Shown: positions 46,170 to 50,987 of the stretch, piece by piece
Layout: each line of letters begins with the position of its first letter
Position numbering within the stretch: the stretch's first letter is position 1
Assembly (NCBI GenBank): GCA_019913005.1
Contig: JAIOHL010000078.1
Location: 1 to 64,000, forward strand
Length of the DNA stretch: 64,000 bases
Source of the DNA: Anaerolineae bacterium
GTDB lineage: Bacteria; Chloroflexota; Anaerolineae; Aggregatilineales; J027
Direction of reading: 5' to 3'
Notes under the pieces: model-generated
Seen by the model: the letters and a program-made list of their open reading frames with translations, nothing else
The model's database searches: none
What the model was told of the DNA's origin: nothing
Program-made: the position numbers and the translations under genes

Positions 46170-47531
46170 ATGGGTAATTCATCTCAATTTGAAGTCCACG
46201 ATGCGAGTATTTTGGAGAATGCGCGGGCTATCCTCGAAAAAGCGGGTTCGGCCAAAGATATGGCGGATGCGGTCATACGGGCGGTGCAGCGCAACGAGGA
46301 ATGGCGTGGCAAACGCTGTATCAATCTCTTAGCTCCCGAAGCTCCCACGAGTCCCACTGTACGTCAGCTATTGGCATCCGAAATCGGGACACGCGCCGCC
46401 GAAGGGCATATCGGACGGGTCAATCGCTGGTTTGCGGGGACACAGTACATTGATGAAGTCGAGTCATTGTGTGTCGAGTTGCTCAAAAAGGCCTTCCGCT
46501 GCAACTATGCGGATCATCGCCTGATGGGGAGCATGTTAGGCAATATGGCGGTTTATCATGCCCTTGTTCAGCCGGGTGATCGCGTGATGAGCGCGTCGCA
46601 GCCGTTTGGAGGGCATTCCAGCAACCGCCCCGATGGGCCAGCCGGTACACGTGGCCTCGAAATCTACGATATTCCCTATGACCCGGATGAACTTGAAGTA
46701 GATTTAGATAAATTTACCGAAGAAGCCCAACGCATTCGCCCCAAATTGGTGGTGATGGGCATGTCTATGACCCTCTTTCCCCTGCCTGTGCGCGAAATGA
46801 CCTCGATTATTACGGAGTGGGGCGGTAAGTTTGTGTTTGATGGGGCGCACCAAGCCGGGTTAATCGCTGGTGGTCAATTCCAAGACCCCCTCAATGAAGG
46901 TGCGGCAATTTTGACAGGCTCGGCAGGCAAAACCTTCAGTGGCCCACAAAGCGGCATGATCATGTGGAACGACCCATCGTTGACCAAACCCATTACCGAA
47001 GCTATTTTCCCGGTACTGGTGGCGACGCATCAGGTCAATCGTGTGGCAGCGCTGGCCGTCGCTGCCGCAGAGATCCTTGAATTTGGGCGGGTTTATATGG
47101 CCCAGATTGTCAAAAACGCTCAAGCCCTCGGCCAAGCATTGGATTCACGCGGTGTTCCAGTTCTTGCGGCCCATCGCGGCTATACCCGTACCCATCAAGT
47201 GATCGCCAATGTGCGCCAGTTCGGGGGTGGGCTAGAAGTGGCTCATCGTTTGGCGGAGGCCAATATCATTTCGAACAAAAACCTGATTCCCGGTGATACC
47301 CCCGCCGATTGGGATCGTCCCAGCGGCTTGCGGATGGGCACGATTGAAGTGACGCGCTTGGGTATGATGGAACAAGAGATGGAAACGATAGCCGAATTTA
47401 TGGCGCGAGTGTTGGTGAATGGCGAAGACCCAGAATTGGTGCGCCGCGATGTCGAAGATTTCCGCCTCCCCATGCAGGATTTTTACTATAACTTTGATAA
47501 TGGCTGGCCCACTGCTCAAGAGGGAGGCTAA
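46170..47531 (+). CDS. Serine hydroxymethyltransferase-like PLP enzyme
   Basis: The fold-type I PLP enzyme has SHMT-like landmarks: NLLAPEAPTSP (for LIASEN), FAGTQYIDEVE (for GCEYVDEVE), FDGAHQAGLIAGGQF (PLP-binding Asp and His), and GSAGKTFSGPQSG (Schiff-base Lys). The match is distant, so it is likely a paralog acting on another beta-hydroxy or alpha-methyl amino acid rather than the folate-cycle GlyA. It is cotranscribed with a GntR regulator, consistent with an inducible catabolic enzyme. Confidence 0.82.
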   Translation: MGNSSQFEVHDASILENARAILEKAGSAKDMADAVIRAVQRNEEWRGKRCINLLAPEAPTSPTVRQLLASEIGTRAAEGHIGRVNRWFAGTQYIDEVESLCVELLKKAFRCNYADHRLMGSMLGNMAVYHALVQPGDRVMSASQPFGGHSSNRPDGPAGTRGLEIYDIPYDPDELEVDLDKFTEEAQRIRPKLVVMGMSMTLFPLPVREMTSIITEWGGKFVFDGAHQAGLIAGGQFQDPLNEGAAILTGSAGKTFSGPQSGMIMWNDPSLTKPITEAIFPVLVATHQVNRVAALAVAAAEILEFGRVYMAQIVKNAQALGQALDSRGVPVLAAHRGYTRTHQVIANVRQFGGGLEVAHRLAEANIISNKNLIPGDTPADWDRPSGLRMGTIEVTRLGMMEQEMETIAEFMARVLVNGEDPELVRRDVEDFRLPMQDFYYNFDNGWPTAQEGG

Positions 47532-47596
47532 ATTTCAGATCGAAATCACCTGATCCTATCTTGGTTTCCAATAGTGACAGGTACGCTTGGGTCGGA

Positions 47597-48169
47597 TCAG
47601 TGGTCGAGCGGTGGCTTGGTGGGGTCTTGGATATAACGGCCCAGTATAAGCGAACGGACGACTTCCTCCCATGCGGCCTCGTATTTCGCCGCTTCGTCCA
47701 CCCAAAAATCGAAGGTAATCAGTATTTGAACATTCCACCCCCGTGCGACTAGGATACGGGTAAAGGCCTCACGATTGTCATTTTCGGTATCTTCAAAACG
47801 GTGTTCGACCCAAACGATTTCAACACCCGGACGGCTGACCCGGAATAGCTCACTTTTAGCTAGGACTTTCATTTTGCTGTCATTAGTGGAATCAATCAGC
47901 ATTTTATCGAGGGGTAGCCCACTCCAATCCACTCCCACAGGCAGCCGCCAAAAGGAGGTGGTGAGGCGTGCATTGTCGTTGGGTGGGTCGGCGTCATGCA
48001 GTTCAAACGGCTCTAGTTTTGCCACAATCCATGTATCCGGCACATTGAAGCTCACCAAGCCGCGCTCCAATACCACGATTTTGTAGCCTTCGGGTGCTTT
48101 CCATGTGTGGTTCGCTGGCAACGGTATAGTGGTTGCTTTGGGGTTCTGCTTATGTTTAGGCCGTTTCAT
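47597..48169 (-). CDS. Hypothetical protein, 190 aa
   Basis: The protein has a basic N-terminus followed by mixed strands and helices (YKIVVLERGLVSFNVPDTW, VEIVWVEHRFEDTENDNREAF). The composition suggests a single cytosolic domain. I do not recognise the family. ATG at 48169 follows GGAGG at 5 nt; the GTG at 48181 lies on that site and is less likely. It converges on the SHMT-like gene. Confidence 0.65.
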   Translation of the reverse strand: MKRPKHKQNPKATTIPLPANHTWKAPEGYKIVVLERGLVSFNVPDTWIVAKLEPFELHDADPPNDNARLTTSFWRLPVGVDWSGLPLDKMLIDSTNDSKMKVLAKSELFRVSRPGVEIVWVEHRFEDTENDNREAFTRILVARGWNVQILITFDFWVDEAAKYEAAWEEVVRSLILGRYIQDPTKPPLDH

Positions 48170-48254
48170 GAATGCCTCCACGTATAGTTGAATCCGTCAT
48201 ATCCATTCTAACGCATTTTAAAAATCCAAAATGTCAAGCGAAACTCTTGTGGAT

Positions 48255-48304
48255 TACCCCCAAAGTGAGGGGGTAAAAAATTGACCCTTGTGTAAATTCA
48301 CAAA
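48255..48304 (+). promoter_or_regulatory. Palindromes and promoter elements upstream of glnA
   Basis: TTACCCCC (48255-48262) and GGGGGTAA (48270-48277) form a perfect 8-bp inverted repeat 4 nt before a -35-like TTGACC (48282-48287). TTGTG (48289-48293) and CACAA (48300-48304) make a second palindrome just after it. Together they look like regulator sites around the glnA promoter; the regulator is unknown. The sites do not fit the GlnR/TnrA consensus. Confidence 0.45.
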
Positions 48305-48398
48305 ATAGGCTTCAGAAACTTGAGAAGTGAATACAATTTGCCCGATATTATTCCAACGCCATGTCGTTCGTCAAAAACATATAGAAGGTTAGGTAGTT

Positions 48399-49820
48399 AT
48401 GTCTGAATCACTCCGCAACTTCCTCGAAATTCCCTATGAACAGCTAGAAGAGCTGAATCTTGAGGCAAAAACAAAACGCCAAAATCGTGTTTCAGCCGAT
48501 ACTATCCGTGAAGAACGGATGCGTTATTTGACGGATGAAAAGCGTATTAAGGCCGTGACGGTTTGCTTCACCGATCTCGAAGGCCGCTTCCACATGCTAG
48601 ATTATGACAAGAAATTCTTGTTAAAAGCTGCCGATAATCTTACCTTCGATGGTTCGTCAGTACGCGGCTTCAGCCAACAGTCCGAATCTGACCTACGCTT
48701 GGGCATTGACTGGTCGGCGTTCTATTGGCTACCCTCCGATGTGTTTGGCCCCGGTAAAGTCTTGGTCTTCGGTGAAGTTTTGGAACGTGAGGGCGGTCCC
48801 TATCCTGCCGACATGCGTTCGGCGCTGAAGCTGTATACCGCCGACCAATATCAAAAGAACGGTTATACTTTCAACTTATCCAATGAAATTGAGGGCTTCA
48901 TCTTCCGAGGTCGTCATGCTGAACAGCGTTACGTTGAAACGGGCCAATTTGAGTTCGTTTCGACAGGTGGTTACTATCACTCACTCCCCGGCGATACACT
49001 GCGCACATTCATTGACAAGGCTGCGGAAGTGCAGCGTGCGATGGGGTTTGCGAATGAAAAAGATCATCCTGAAGTCGCCCCGTCGCAATTTGAGATGAAC
49101 TACTCCTATTCGGAAGCCGTGATTGCCGCCGATCAGATTCAACTGTATAAACTGGTGGCCCGCCAAGTCGCGCAGCAAATGGATTTGACCGCCAGCTTCC
49201 TGCCAAAACCTGTAACTGGGGTAAACGGCAGCGGGATGCACACCAATATGTCCATCTCCAAAGGCGACACCAACTTGTTTTATCAAAAAGATGGTCAAGA
49301 TGGCATCTCTAGCCTCGCATGGGATTTTGTGAAACGTATTTTGAGCGTTGGCCGCGAAATCTGCTTGGTCTTGAACCCCAGCGTCAATGCATATCGCCGT
49401 CTCGATCCCCACTATGAGGCGCCCAATCAAATCAAGGCCTCGCCGATTGACCGGGGCAGCATGGTGCGTATTCCAATTGGTAACTCACGGTCAGCCCGTA
49501 TTGAAGTCCGCTCCATTGCGCCTGACGCCAATCCTTACCTCGCGGTTTATACCCTGTTCCGCACGGGGTTGGAAGGGAAAATCAGCACCCATCTCTCGCC
49601 CGACGCGATCCTGCCCGACAACATCTATGACGCTATCTCCGATTTCTGCGGTGGGGTGTTTGTCCGACAAGTATTGGGAGACGAGATTTGCGAACGCTAT
49701 GCGGCATTGAAGCAGGCCTCGGCTGATCGCTGCCCACGCCTGTTGGGTTCACAGATCAAGCCCGCCGAAATTCAATTCCACCACGAAGTCACCAATCAAT
49801 ACTACTGGAATCAGTTCTAG
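48399..49820 (+). CDS. glnA: Glutamine synthetase type I
   Basis: Glutamine synthetase makes glutamine from glutamate and ammonia. The beta-grasp N-terminal domain and catalytic domain are intact: DLEGRFHMLDYDKKF, FDGSSVRGF, NEIEGFIFRGR (metal-binding Glu), GSGMHTNMS (metal-binding His), NPSVNAYRRL and RIEVRSIAPDANPYL. The length (473) is normal. The usual adenylylation segment (NLYDLPP-like) is not evident; the nearest is DNIYDAISDF. It ends in TAG and is followed by a strong terminator. Confidence 0.96.
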   Translation: MSESLRNFLEIPYEQLEELNLEAKTKRQNRVSADTIREERMRYLTDEKRIKAVTVCFTDLEGRFHMLDYDKKFLLKAADNLTFDGSSVRGFSQQSESDLRLGIDWSAFYWLPSDVFGPGKVLVFGEVLEREGGPYPADMRSALKLYTADQYQKNGYTFNLSNEIEGFIFRGRHAEQRYVETGQFEFVSTGGYYHSLPGDTLRTFIDKAAEVQRAMGFANEKDHPEVAPSQFEMNYSYSEAVIAADQIQLYKLVARQVAQQMDLTASFLPKPVTGVNGSGMHTNMSISKGDTNLFYQKDGQDGISSLAWDFVKRILSVGREICLVLNPSVNAYRRLDPHYEAPNQIKASPIDRGSMVRIPIGNSRSARIEVRSIAPDANPYLAVYTLFRTGLEGKISTHLSPDAILPDNIYDAISDFCGGVFVRQVLGDEICERYAALKQASADRCPRLLGSQIKPAEIQFHHEVTNQYYWNQF

Positions 49821-49831
49821 TCGAAATGGGG

Positions 49832-49866
49832 GAGGGACATCTGCAAGGGTGTCCCTCATTTTTTGT
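49832..49866 (+). terminator. Terminator after glnA
   Basis: GAGGGACA (49832-49839) pairs with TGTCCCTC (49850-49857), followed by a T-rich tract. It separates glnA from the amber-tRNA cassette. Confidence 0.9.
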
Positions 49867-49873
49867 TGCTCGA

Positions 49874-49903
49874 TTGAAACTGCGGTATCATCTTTTTTAT
49901 GCT
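49874..49903 (+). promoter_or_regulatory. Candidate promoter of the amber-tRNA cassette
   Basis: TTGAAA (49874-49879) and TATGCT (49898-49903) are separated by 18 bp and lie just after the glnA terminator. Transcription would start about 5-8 nt before the tRNA 5' end. No other promoter stands out before the next two genes, so they may share this one. Confidence 0.45.
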
Positions 49904-49914
49904 TTTGCGAGTTT

Positions 49915-49986
49915 GGGTCATATGCTCGTTGGATGGGCGGCGGACTCTAAACCCGCTAGAAGCGAGTTCGATTCTCGCATGACCCA
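49915..49986 (+). tRNA. tRNA-like gene with amber-reading CUA anticodon
   Basis: The 72-nt sequence folds as a cloverleaf: acceptor GGGTCAT (49915-49921) with ATGACCC (49979-49985), discriminator A49986, D-stem GCTC/GGGC, anticodon stem GCGGA/CCCGC, variable loop TAGAA, and T-arm GCGAG-TTCGATT-CTCGC. The loop is CTCTAAA (49945-49951). With U33 at 49946, the anticodon is CUA (49947-49949), complementary to UAG. Oddities: position 8 is A and 14 is G, so the U8-A14 pair is absent; 31-39 is an A-C mismatch; and CCA is not encoded, unlike the other two tRNAs here. It could be a suppressor tRNA or a tRNA-like regulator. The amino acid cannot be read from the sequence. Confidence 0.8.
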
Positions 49987-49999
49987 TTTTGGAGGAAAT

Positions 50000-50062
50000 A
50001 TGTTGTAGGTTCATTATTCCAAAACTCGAGACCCCCCAAACTGTATCTCCCTCTCTACCTGA
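50000..50062 (+). CDS. Leader ORF with in-frame amber at codon 3 (or two-codon minigene)
   Basis: GGAGG (49991-49995) is followed by ATG-TTG-TAG (50000-50008). Read strictly this is a two-codon minigene. If the TAG is decoded, the frame continues for 17 more codons to TGA at 50060-50062, giving a 20-residue peptide. It starts 14 nt after the CUA tRNA. Its stop lies just beyond the left arm of the hairpin that covers the next gene's ribosome-binding site. Either reading would be a regulatory leader rather than a functional protein. Confidence 0.5.
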
Positions 50063-50097: not shown

Positions 50098-50520
50098 ATG
50101 AATACCCTTCCAAAAGCGATCACCGCTCAAATAATAGCTGACATTTCTACCTACCAGAGTATCCGCAGCCACTGGAGTGATTTGATGCGCTCCACACGCA
50201 GGCATGAGTTACGGACCGCCCATCATCTCCTGTACCTAGCATTGTTAGGTAAGGATTGGCGCAAGGCTTTTCGCTGTCTTTTTAATTCAAACAAGCTCAA
50301 TAATGGCGCGTTTCCCGGATGGGGACTCTTTCGCGCGGTAGCCATGCTGCACATGACATCGTGTGAAGAGGAAGTGCTTGCCCCATTCGATGGCCTTGTT
50401 ACCCCGGTTATGCTTCAACAGATACGGCAATTGATCCCTATTCCGAATGCCTACAAACTCAAGCCCGAACAATTCGCAACAGGGAAATTTCCCTTTGATG
50501 CTTATATTGTGCCCGCTTGA
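50098..50520 (+). CDS. Unknown protein of the amber-tRNA cassette, 140 aa
   Basis: I do not recognise this protein. It appears mostly helical. Notable segments are SHWSDLMRSTRRHELRTAHH (charged helix with His pair), LLYLALLGKDWRKAFRCLFN, GAFPGWGLFRAV, and a C-terminal PFDAYIVPA. It has no signal or membrane segment. Its strong Shine-Dalgarno AGAGGAG lies 8 nt before the ATG inside a hairpin. It ends in TGA, 38 nt before the Pth2-like gene, so the two are likely translated from one message. Its place between a CUA tRNA and a Pth2-like gene suggests a tRNA- or translation-related role (inference). Confidence 0.85.
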   Translation: MNTLPKAITAQIIADISTYQSIRSHWSDLMRSTRRHELRTAHHLLYLALLGKDWRKAFRCLFNSNKLNNGAFPGWGLFRAVAMLHMTSCEEEVLAPFDGLVTPVMLQQIRQLIPIPNAYKLKPEQFATGKFPFDAYIVPA

Positions 50521-50547: not shown

Positions 50548-50573
50548 AGGAGGAAACTATGCCAGAACATTAG
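50548..50573 (+). promoter_or_regulatory. Strong Shine-Dalgarno, start codon and in-frame TAG of the Pth2-like gene
   Basis: AGGAGG (50548-50553) lies 5 nt before ATG 50559-50561. The codons are ATG-CCA-GAA-CAT-TAG, with TAG at 50571-50573 in the same frame as the Pth2-like protein. An alternative start, TTG 50583, has no Shine-Dalgarno, so this site decides the start. It could also act as a four-codon minigene with reinitiation at the TTG. Confidence 0.8.
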
Positions 50574-50987
50574 ACTACAAACTTGTATGCCTATGTGCTT
50601 GTCCGAACCGATATTGCACTTGAACAGCAAATTGTGCAGGTTGGACATGCCTGTTTGGAAGCAGGACGTAGATTTGACTGGCCGGATACCCCCTGTAATC
50701 TCGTTGTCCTCGGTGTCGCCAATGTATCTGATTTACGGGCTGCGATTGAACGGGTGCAACTGGCCGAAGTGCGTGTCGCGCTTTTCTATGAACCAGACCA
50801 TCAGCTTGGTTTAACAGCCGCCTGTACAGAACCCATCTCCGGTGCATTTAGGCGACTCTTTCGGCGTTTTGCTCTTTGGAATGGGCAAGATGTAATCTTT
50901 ATTCGCGGGCCACCGCACCCCGTTTTCCGGAAATCGCAGTTAACGAACGTATGTTCTATGGATTGGAGTTATATGCGCCGAAGTTGA
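50559..50987 (+). CDS. Pth2-like (peptidyl-tRNA hydrolase fold) protein with in-frame amber codon 5
   Basis: From codon 9 the frame encodes LYAYVLVRTDIALEQQ, then VQVGHACLEAGR, NLVVLGVANVSDL, and FYEPDHQLGLTAACTEP. This pattern fits the Pth2/PTRHD1-like fold seen in phage and bacterial proteins, whose best-known members hydrolyse peptidyl-tRNA. The family core begins at about YAYVLVR, so the N-terminal MPEH-X-TTNL is an extension containing the TAG. The frame ends in TGA at 50985-50987. Production could need UAG decoding by the upstream CUA tRNA, reinitiation at TTG 50583, or could be lost by mutation. The rest of the frame is intact, which argues against decay. Confidence 0.78.

Follow-up and report, generated by a model that had tools for sequence, protein, structure and literature searches.

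Amber (UAG) codons are known to be read as amino acids in phages with stop-codon recoding (code 15 phages and crAss-like phages), where a phage-encoded tRNA with the anticodon CUA (tRNA-CUA) serves as a suppressor and UAG is a sense codon in many genes. The reason why phages carry such tRNAs has been raised repeatedly: the authors of the XacN1 study read through 18 amber stops and could not identify targets (PMC5852040), those of RsoM2USA supposed several targets (PMC8504454), and a 2025 paper asks why zeta crAss-like phages keep such tRNAs (PMC12386605). In the RAPP-type regulatory arrest peptides (ApdA, ApdP, and SecM kin), a short upstream ORF carries an RxPP motif placed before a hairpin that hides the next Shine-Dalgarno (SD) sequence. 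RAPP peptides stall ribosomes (PMC10951233), RDPP and RSPP are reported as partly permissive variants of the RAPP arrest motif, and such motifs are reported to be rare in proteomes (PMC12992588). Here we describe a small gene cassette, found in Chloroflexota and in part in jumbo phages, that appears to combine a tRNA-CUA with UAG codons at the start of its own genes, so that these genes should be made only when the suppressor tRNA is at work.

The cassette was found in a 64,000-nucleotide stretch of an Anaerolineae bacterium (GenBank assembly GCA_019913005.1, contig JAIOHL010000078.1, positions 1 to 64,000), referred to below as the window. The original prediction was that a gene similar to Pth2 peptidyl-tRNA hydrolases carries an in-frame amber codon at codon 5, behind an ATG with a well-placed SD sequence. 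This observation is confirmed: AGGAGG at 50548-50553 stands 5 nt before ATG 50559-50561, the frame ATG CCA GAA CAT TAG has its TAG at 50571-50573, and it is then open to TGA 50985-50987 (137 aa after the TAG). The prediction named TTG 50583 as the only other start, without a ribosome-binding site. Between the TAG and the conserved R-x-D motif, the only ATG, GTG or TTG codons are this TTG and a GTG four codons later, both without any SD match. Two further elements were overlooked in the prediction, namely a tRNA-CUA gene 570 bp upstream and a second conserved early TAG behind it. The features are as follows.

49832-49857, forward strand: intrinsic-terminator-like hairpin with a T run behind the upstream glutamine-synthetase-like gene, the likely left boundary of the cassette
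49874-49903, forward strand: sigma-70-like promoter match TTGAAA-18-TATGCT, ending about 10 nt before the tRNA
49914-49987, forward strand: tRNA gene with anticodon CUA, which reads UAG
49991-49995, forward strand: Shine-Dalgarno GGAGG of the leader ORF
50000-50062, forward strand: leader ORF ATG-TTG-TAG...TGA, M-L-(UAG)-VHYSKTRDPPNCISLST
50006-50008, forward strand: conserved amber codon 3 of the leader
50027-50038, forward strand: RDPP codons, a RAPP-like ribosome-arrest motif
50041-50050, forward strand: 5' arm CTGTATCTCC of the hairpin, starting 2 nt after the second Pro codon
50086-50095, forward strand: 3' arm GGAGATACAG of the hairpin, containing the Shine-Dalgarno of ORF140
50098-50520, forward strand: ORF140, a 140-aa protein of no known family, helical in a low-confidence model
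50548-50553, forward strand: Shine-Dalgarno AGGAGG of the Pth2-like gene
50559-50987, forward strand: Pth2-like gene as read through its amber codon 5, MPEH-(UAG)-TTNLYAYVLVRTD...
50571-50573, forward strand: in-frame amber codon 5

The tRNA was called by ARAGORN, which labels it 'Pyl' on the basis of the anticodon only, and was also matched by Rfam RF00005 (42 bits, 49915-49986). It is the weakest of 48 RF00005 matches in the genome, and by eye has an unusual A8 and an A31-C39 mismatch, but it folds as a tRNA-like cloverleaf (z -3.2) and is near-identical in 5 genomes. Among 29 of the genome's own tRNAs, the nearest by alignment are Tyr(GUA) and Lys(CUU), both weakly, which leaves the identity of the charged amino acid ambiguous. 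The terminator-like and promoter-like sites rest on their placement: 2 terminator-like sites were found against a mean of 1.4 in shuffled sequences, weak on its own, and 2 promoter matches against a mean of 2.2, not above expectation. Upstream of the cassette (46170-49820) are SHMT-like and glutamine-synthetase-like genes, the latter ending in TAG.

To examine whether the cassette is conserved, we searched 61 genomes (the source genome included) with the Pth2-like protein and found the gene in 5, which we label G000, G002, G003 and G004 (one genus) and G043 (another family). All 5 have a tRNA-CUA and an early TAG, preceded by MPEH, MPEH, MPEQ, MPES and MVSER. A DNA search with the tRNA in 396 genomes of the class gave 11 matches, of which 7 are tRNA-CUA by ARAGORN (G000, G002, G003, G004, G080, G385, and G402), whereas those in G309 and G350 lie in tRNA-Lys(CUU), that in G391 lies in tRNA-Cys, and no tRNA was called in G121. 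G080, G385 and G402 contain the whole cassette, with MPHQ, MVKG and MIKG before the TAG. Thus tRNA-CUA, leader TAG at codon 3, ORF140 and the early TAG of the Pth2-like gene (codon 5, in G043 codon 6 of the nearest ATG) are present in 8 of 8 Chloroflexota loci, from four families as labelled. G001, of the same genus as G000, has no match to the protein or the tRNA, and a search for ORF140 in 400 genomes drawn from the phylum found 1, the source genome itself. At the position of TTG 50583, G003 has GTG and the other six Chloroflexota relatives have no start codon. The G043 cassette shares its short contig with an array of 11 tRNA genes of unusual sequence (L012:173-1663; L numbers are our labels for individual contigs or stretches), and dense arrays of 15 and 20 tRNA genes in under 3 kb, perhaps phage or mobile, occur in assemblies G350 and G309 (L049 and L051).

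Directly behind the tRNA lies GGAGG-AAAT-ATG-TTG-TAG, and an SD-like sequence precedes the leader ATG in the 8 Chloroflexota loci. ORF140 is present in twelve loci, the 8 Chloroflexota and the IMG/VR contigs L054 to L057. In 11 of these an early TAG is followed in frame by RDPP (5), RSPP (1), RAPP (3), KSPP (1, L055) or RPP (1, L057), so that 9 of 11 leaders, including all 8 Chloroflexota, contain RxPP with x = A, G, S, D or P, while L054 has neither an RxPP leader nor a tRNA. In the Chloroflexota, the 5' arm of a hairpin begins 0-2 nt after the second Pro codon and its 3' arm holds the GGAG of the ORF140 ribosome-binding site. Across these 8 leaders, 85 of 88 cells are paired, 3 pairs are changed on both sides, and the covariation score is 0.256 against 0.146 +- 0.025 in shuffles (0/500 reach it), while slid versions pair at only 28-58%. 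However, two of the five covariation measures do not exceed the shuffles (pairs changed on both sides, 98/500; further pair types, 500/500), and because the sequences are related these values are not a probability. Single-sequence folds of 5 leaders are modest (z -1.5 to -2.8). In the three phage leaders the hairpin is only a minimum-energy fold, and in L055 its arm overlaps the motif. No RxPP leader was seen upstream of the genes in the GenBank phages. A different conserved mini-leader, MM-(TAG)-(V/I)YF(D/N)SS-stop, lies about 430-470 nt upstream of the Pth2-like gene in three related IMG/VR phages (L065, L067, and L069). In addition, L057 (3937-4104), a 378.8-kb phage contig, has two different adjacent tRNA-CUA genes and a tmRNA, the leader and ORF140, but no Pth2-like gene was seen next to them.

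Scans of IMG/VR with the alignments gave 15 distinct contigs with a Pth2-like domain, besides L057 with ORF140 only. An N-terminal TAG is present in 9 of the 15 (L055, L056, L066, L068, L071, L072, L073, L074, and L076), an internal TAG only in L067, L069 and L075 (L067 and L075 read the same), and none in L054, L064 and L065. Within the stretches examined, a tRNA-CUA was found in 13 of 15, including 8 of the 9 with an N-terminal TAG. It was not found in L073, nor in L054, whose contig has 0 RF00005 matches in 75 kb. Conversely, L064 has a tRNA-CUA but no TAG in its Pth2-like gene, as does L065, although the mini-leader of the latter, MM-(TAG)-VYFDSS, lies 432 nt upstream.

We further opened 19 GenBank phage records, 18 of which have a Pth2-like domain. 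Of these, 14 have the N-terminal TAG, preceded by MT in ME3, MTH in BF, ML in Arash, MAH in XbC2, MAQ in GAP32, MAQ in CBB, MAH in Kaldavass, MTH in LR756511, MS in LR756501, MK in LR756500, MT in LR756504, and MK in pT24, XacN1 and RAS14. The nineteenth record, LR745206, has an HD-like gene alone, with MNT before its TAG. A tRNA-CUA was found for 13 of the 14, that is, for 21 of the 23 phage loci with an N-terminal TAG in both collections. No tRNA-CUA was called for LR756504, LR745206 or L073, by ARAGORN in about 10 kb and by a whole-record pattern that would miss some, with one undetermined anticodon ('tcta') in LR756504. The records are not independent, as BF, XbC2, GAP32, CBB and Kaldavass are 88-100% alike, and 17 of the 31 records listed in that comparison, mostly near-copies of opened ones, were not included. 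The four records without the TAG are RaK2, RCIP0023, Hallingskeid and LR745208. The complete genome of RaK2 has 8 RF00005 matches, and none of the 8 tRNAs called in the stretch examined is CUA; Hallingskeid has 8 matches, of which 7 were identified, none CUA; and in RCIP0023 and LR745208 no tRNA-CUA was found in the stretch examined or by the same pattern search of the record. LR745208 instead has a tRNA with the ochre anticodon UUA right behind its TAG-free Pth2-like gene, where an ATG-TAA version was looked for and not found, and RAS14 has a UUA tRNA besides its CUA tRNA (L177:5399-5475 and L122:17428-17502). A control scan with the canonical phage Pth2 gave only 2 loci, too few for a background rate of tRNA-CUA, so no association statistic is given. 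Searches of phage records with two ORF140 proteins and of plasmids with the Pth2-like protein found nothing at their limits.

The alignment of homologs, which had been put forward beforehand as a test, bears on whether readthrough is needed. Of 34 loci tabulated, 27 have an N-terminal TAG, and 16 of the 27 have no ATG, GTG or TTG between the TAG and the R-x-D motif. The other 11 have such codons, in L056 and L076 an ATG, with at most a 3-nt or badly spaced SD match. Before the TAG, an ATG with an SD match of 4 nt or more is present in 21 of the 27 (badly spaced in G043), and 6 have less (L068, L071, L073, L074, ME3, and pT24). XacN1, not in that table, has an ATG after the TAG, which is the annotated start of its ORF364, but the frame continues upstream through the TAG to an SD-led ATG two codons before it. 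In none of 9 loci without an N-terminal TAG does an SD-led ATG stand directly before an in-frame TAA or TGA.

TAG is an ordinary stop codon in the Chloroflexota. In 393 kb of G004, 100 of 303 mechanically picked ORFs end in TAG, and of 150 ortholog pairs with G003, 45 are TAG/TAG and 18 swap TAG for TAA or TGA. The sequence after shared TAGs is not better conserved than after TAA or TGA (0.71 against 0.85 and 0.77). RF1 (prfA) is over its cut-off in 8 of 8 Chloroflexota genomes. A second, weaker hit of the RF1 model, probably RF2, contains one in-frame TAG in G080 (C701:6288-7295) and one TAA in G043. A comparison of G004 and G003 for other conserved read-through TAGs was swamped by antisense and shadow frames in near-identical DNA and is not used, and since the ortholog comparison asks a narrower question, other UAG targets elsewhere in these genomes are not excluded. 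The phage codes were checked only by mechanical ORF counts.

The designation 'Pth2-like' in the original prediction is right at the level of the predicted fold. The window protein falls below the Pfam PTH2 cut-off (14 bits against 23, E 0.058) and has no NCBIfam hit, although the XacN1 relative (25.3) and Hallingskeid (23.5) exceed 23. The AlphaFold2 model (pLDDT 83) matches solved Pth2 structures far above other folds (Foldseek 3erj_A, E 1.2e-5; VIA-align Z 15.9, rmsd 1.8 over 103 residues). In alignment with the canonical phage Pth2 CBB_392, the R-x-D, Q and H positions are kept but the lysine loop is not, so hydrolase activity is uncertain. An HD-like region is fused to the Pth2-like domain in XacN1 and RAS14 (HD-like first) and in pT24 (Pth2 first), and similar sequence lies in separate ORFs near the Pth2-like gene in ME3, CBB, GAP32 and others (fusions and the HD-like gene of LR745206: L081:5443-6303, L085:5443-6303, L088:5926-6891, and L174:4842-5435). 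The HD-like assignment rests on sub-threshold Pfam matches (RAS14, E 0.011; pT24, E 0.05) and on the 67% identity of XacN1 to RAS14. ORF140 has no match in PHROGs, PDB sequences, PADLOC or NCBIfam, one sub-threshold Pfam hit (Rrn11, E 0.043), and a poor model (pLDDT 61), and no fold is claimed.

Taken together, we interpret the cassette, with good confidence, as an operon that depends on its own suppressor tRNA. In this view, a promoter just before the tRNA would transcribe tRNA-CUA, leader, ORF140 and the Pth2-like gene, and the tRNA, charged by a host synthetase, would compete with RF1 at UAG. If suppression is low, ribosomes would stop at codon 3 of the leader and the hairpin would mask the SD of ORF140. 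If it is high, a ribosome would pass the UAG, reach RxPP and stall, and its footprint would cover the 5' arm and free the ORF140 start. The Pth2-like gene would require a second UAG readthrough at codon 5, and its product would hydrolyze peptidyl- or aminoacyl-tRNA, most simply that of tRNA-CUA or of stalled or dropped-off chains, thereby capping suppression by negative feedback. In jumbo phages, the pair of tRNA-CUA and UAG-locked Pth2-like gene is kept, mostly without ORF140. Of these steps, the tRNA and RF1 genes, the leader anatomy with its covariation, and the predicted fold are shown by our analysis, and readthrough at codon 5 is strongly supported by sequence, though without protein data, whereas the single transcript, the charging and UAG decoding of the tRNA, the stalling (by analogy with RAPP peptides), and the activity, substrate and feedback of the hydrolase are inferred, the feedback or antidote role being a guess. 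Because the inserted residue lies in a variable tail and the tRNAs differ widely between phages, what seems conserved is suppression itself, not a residue.

The interpretation in the original prediction is partly supported. Its main point, that the TAG sits in a functional gene and is not a recent disabling mutation, is supported, as the TAG is conserved in 8 of 8 Chloroflexota loci and a tRNA-CUA lies in the same cassette. Its alternative, a minigene as feedback sensor for a hydrolase, is not excluded. In the form considered here, ATG-x-TAG units are terminating minigenes whose peptidyl-tRNA drop-off reports low peptidyl-tRNA hydrolase, and the hydrolase itself starts downstream of the TAG. 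In favor of this, two minigenes with good SDs exist (ATG-TTG-TAG and ATG-CCA-GAA-CAT-TAG), the product has the predicted Pth2 fold, and possible starts follow the TAG in the window (TTG 50583) and in L056, L076 and XacN1 (ATG). We nevertheless consider it very unlikely, given the co-occurring suppressor tRNA, the lack of any other start in 16 of 27 loci, and the leader anatomy; a start at TTG 50583, which has no SD and is not conserved, finds no support in the alignment, though this is evidence from sequence alone. An addiction-like pair, in which the suppressor tRNA harms a host through readthrough and the UAG-locked Pth2-like protein is the antidote made in proportion, would use the same circuit as the proposed feedback, is compatible with the retention of the pair in phage and chromosomal settings, and draws on the toxicity of foreign suppressor tRNAs mentioned in PMC12386605. 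This remains hypothetical and doubtful, since the window copy sits beside ordinary metabolic genes and PADLOC gives no hit for the two window proteins.

Genome-wide reassignment of UAG is suggested by the tRNA-CUA and by internal TAGs in L067, L069 and L075 and, besides the N-terminal one, in LR756501, where drift or recoding is possible, but it is refuted for the Chloroflexota by the use of TAG as a terminator and the presence of RF1, and we regard it as most improbable overall. Equally improbable is the insertion of pyrrolysine or another special residue for catalysis, which has only the anticodon and the ARAGORN label in its favor: the PylS model (TIGR02367) is over its cut-off in 0 of 8 genomes (7 of 8 have only weak matches of 20-28 bits against a cut-off of 178) and in 1 of 14 control genomes, the tRNA lacks the tRNA-Pyl shape, the residue lies in a non-conserved N-terminal tail, and the CUA tRNAs differ widely between phages.

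Searches of open-licence papers, which do not cover subscription journals, showed no description of this pairing. It is somewhat more likely than not that the cassette represents a previously undescribed class of regulatory operon, shared by bacterial chromosomes and jumbo phages of many hosts, in which a cis-encoded nonsense-suppressor tRNA is both the signal and the key. UAG codons in an arrest-peptide leader and at the start of a putative tRNA-hydrolase gene would make the operon a sensor of UAG decoding (charged tRNA-CUA against RF1), with the hydrolase closing a feedback loop, and this would be the reason why many standard-code phages carry amber suppressor tRNAs. XacN1 itself offers a target in ORF364, and as the pairing recurs in distant phages and in Chloroflexota chromosomes, the question of what these tRNAs are for becomes testable. 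On this reading, the cassette also shows genes whose annotated start lies behind a TAG or that were missed, and a natural gene switch based on stop-codon suppression.

Compared with the recoded phages, the cassette likewise encodes a tRNA-CUA expected to read UAG as an amino acid, but the Chloroflexota keep UAG as a stop, and the UAG is placed at the start of one or two genes beside or near the tRNA (the codes of the single phages being less rigorously established). The leader resembles the RAPP-type arrest peptides in its RxPP motif and its conserved SD-masking hairpin, but entry into the ORF is gated by an early amber codon, the ORFs are short (8 to about 58 codons), and the downstream genes are not Sec or YidC. 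The Pth2-like protein shares the predicted fold and the R-x-D...Q..H positions of Pth2 (PF01981) hydrolases, but differs in the lysine loop, in the Pfam score of the window protein, and in the early UAG of its gene. The protein family is already known from phages, as the window protein matches PHROG 34073 and PHROG 1866, both of unknown function, at E 6.9e-6 and 3.2e-4 (the G080 relative at 5.9e-5 and 6.5e-6), where no function, TAG or tRNA link is given. Finally, as in the programmed recoding of RF2 (prfB), an in-frame stop near the gene start could make expression report the stop-decoding machinery, here through proposed readthrough by a cis-encoded tRNA, at UAG instead of UGA, and without a frameshift.
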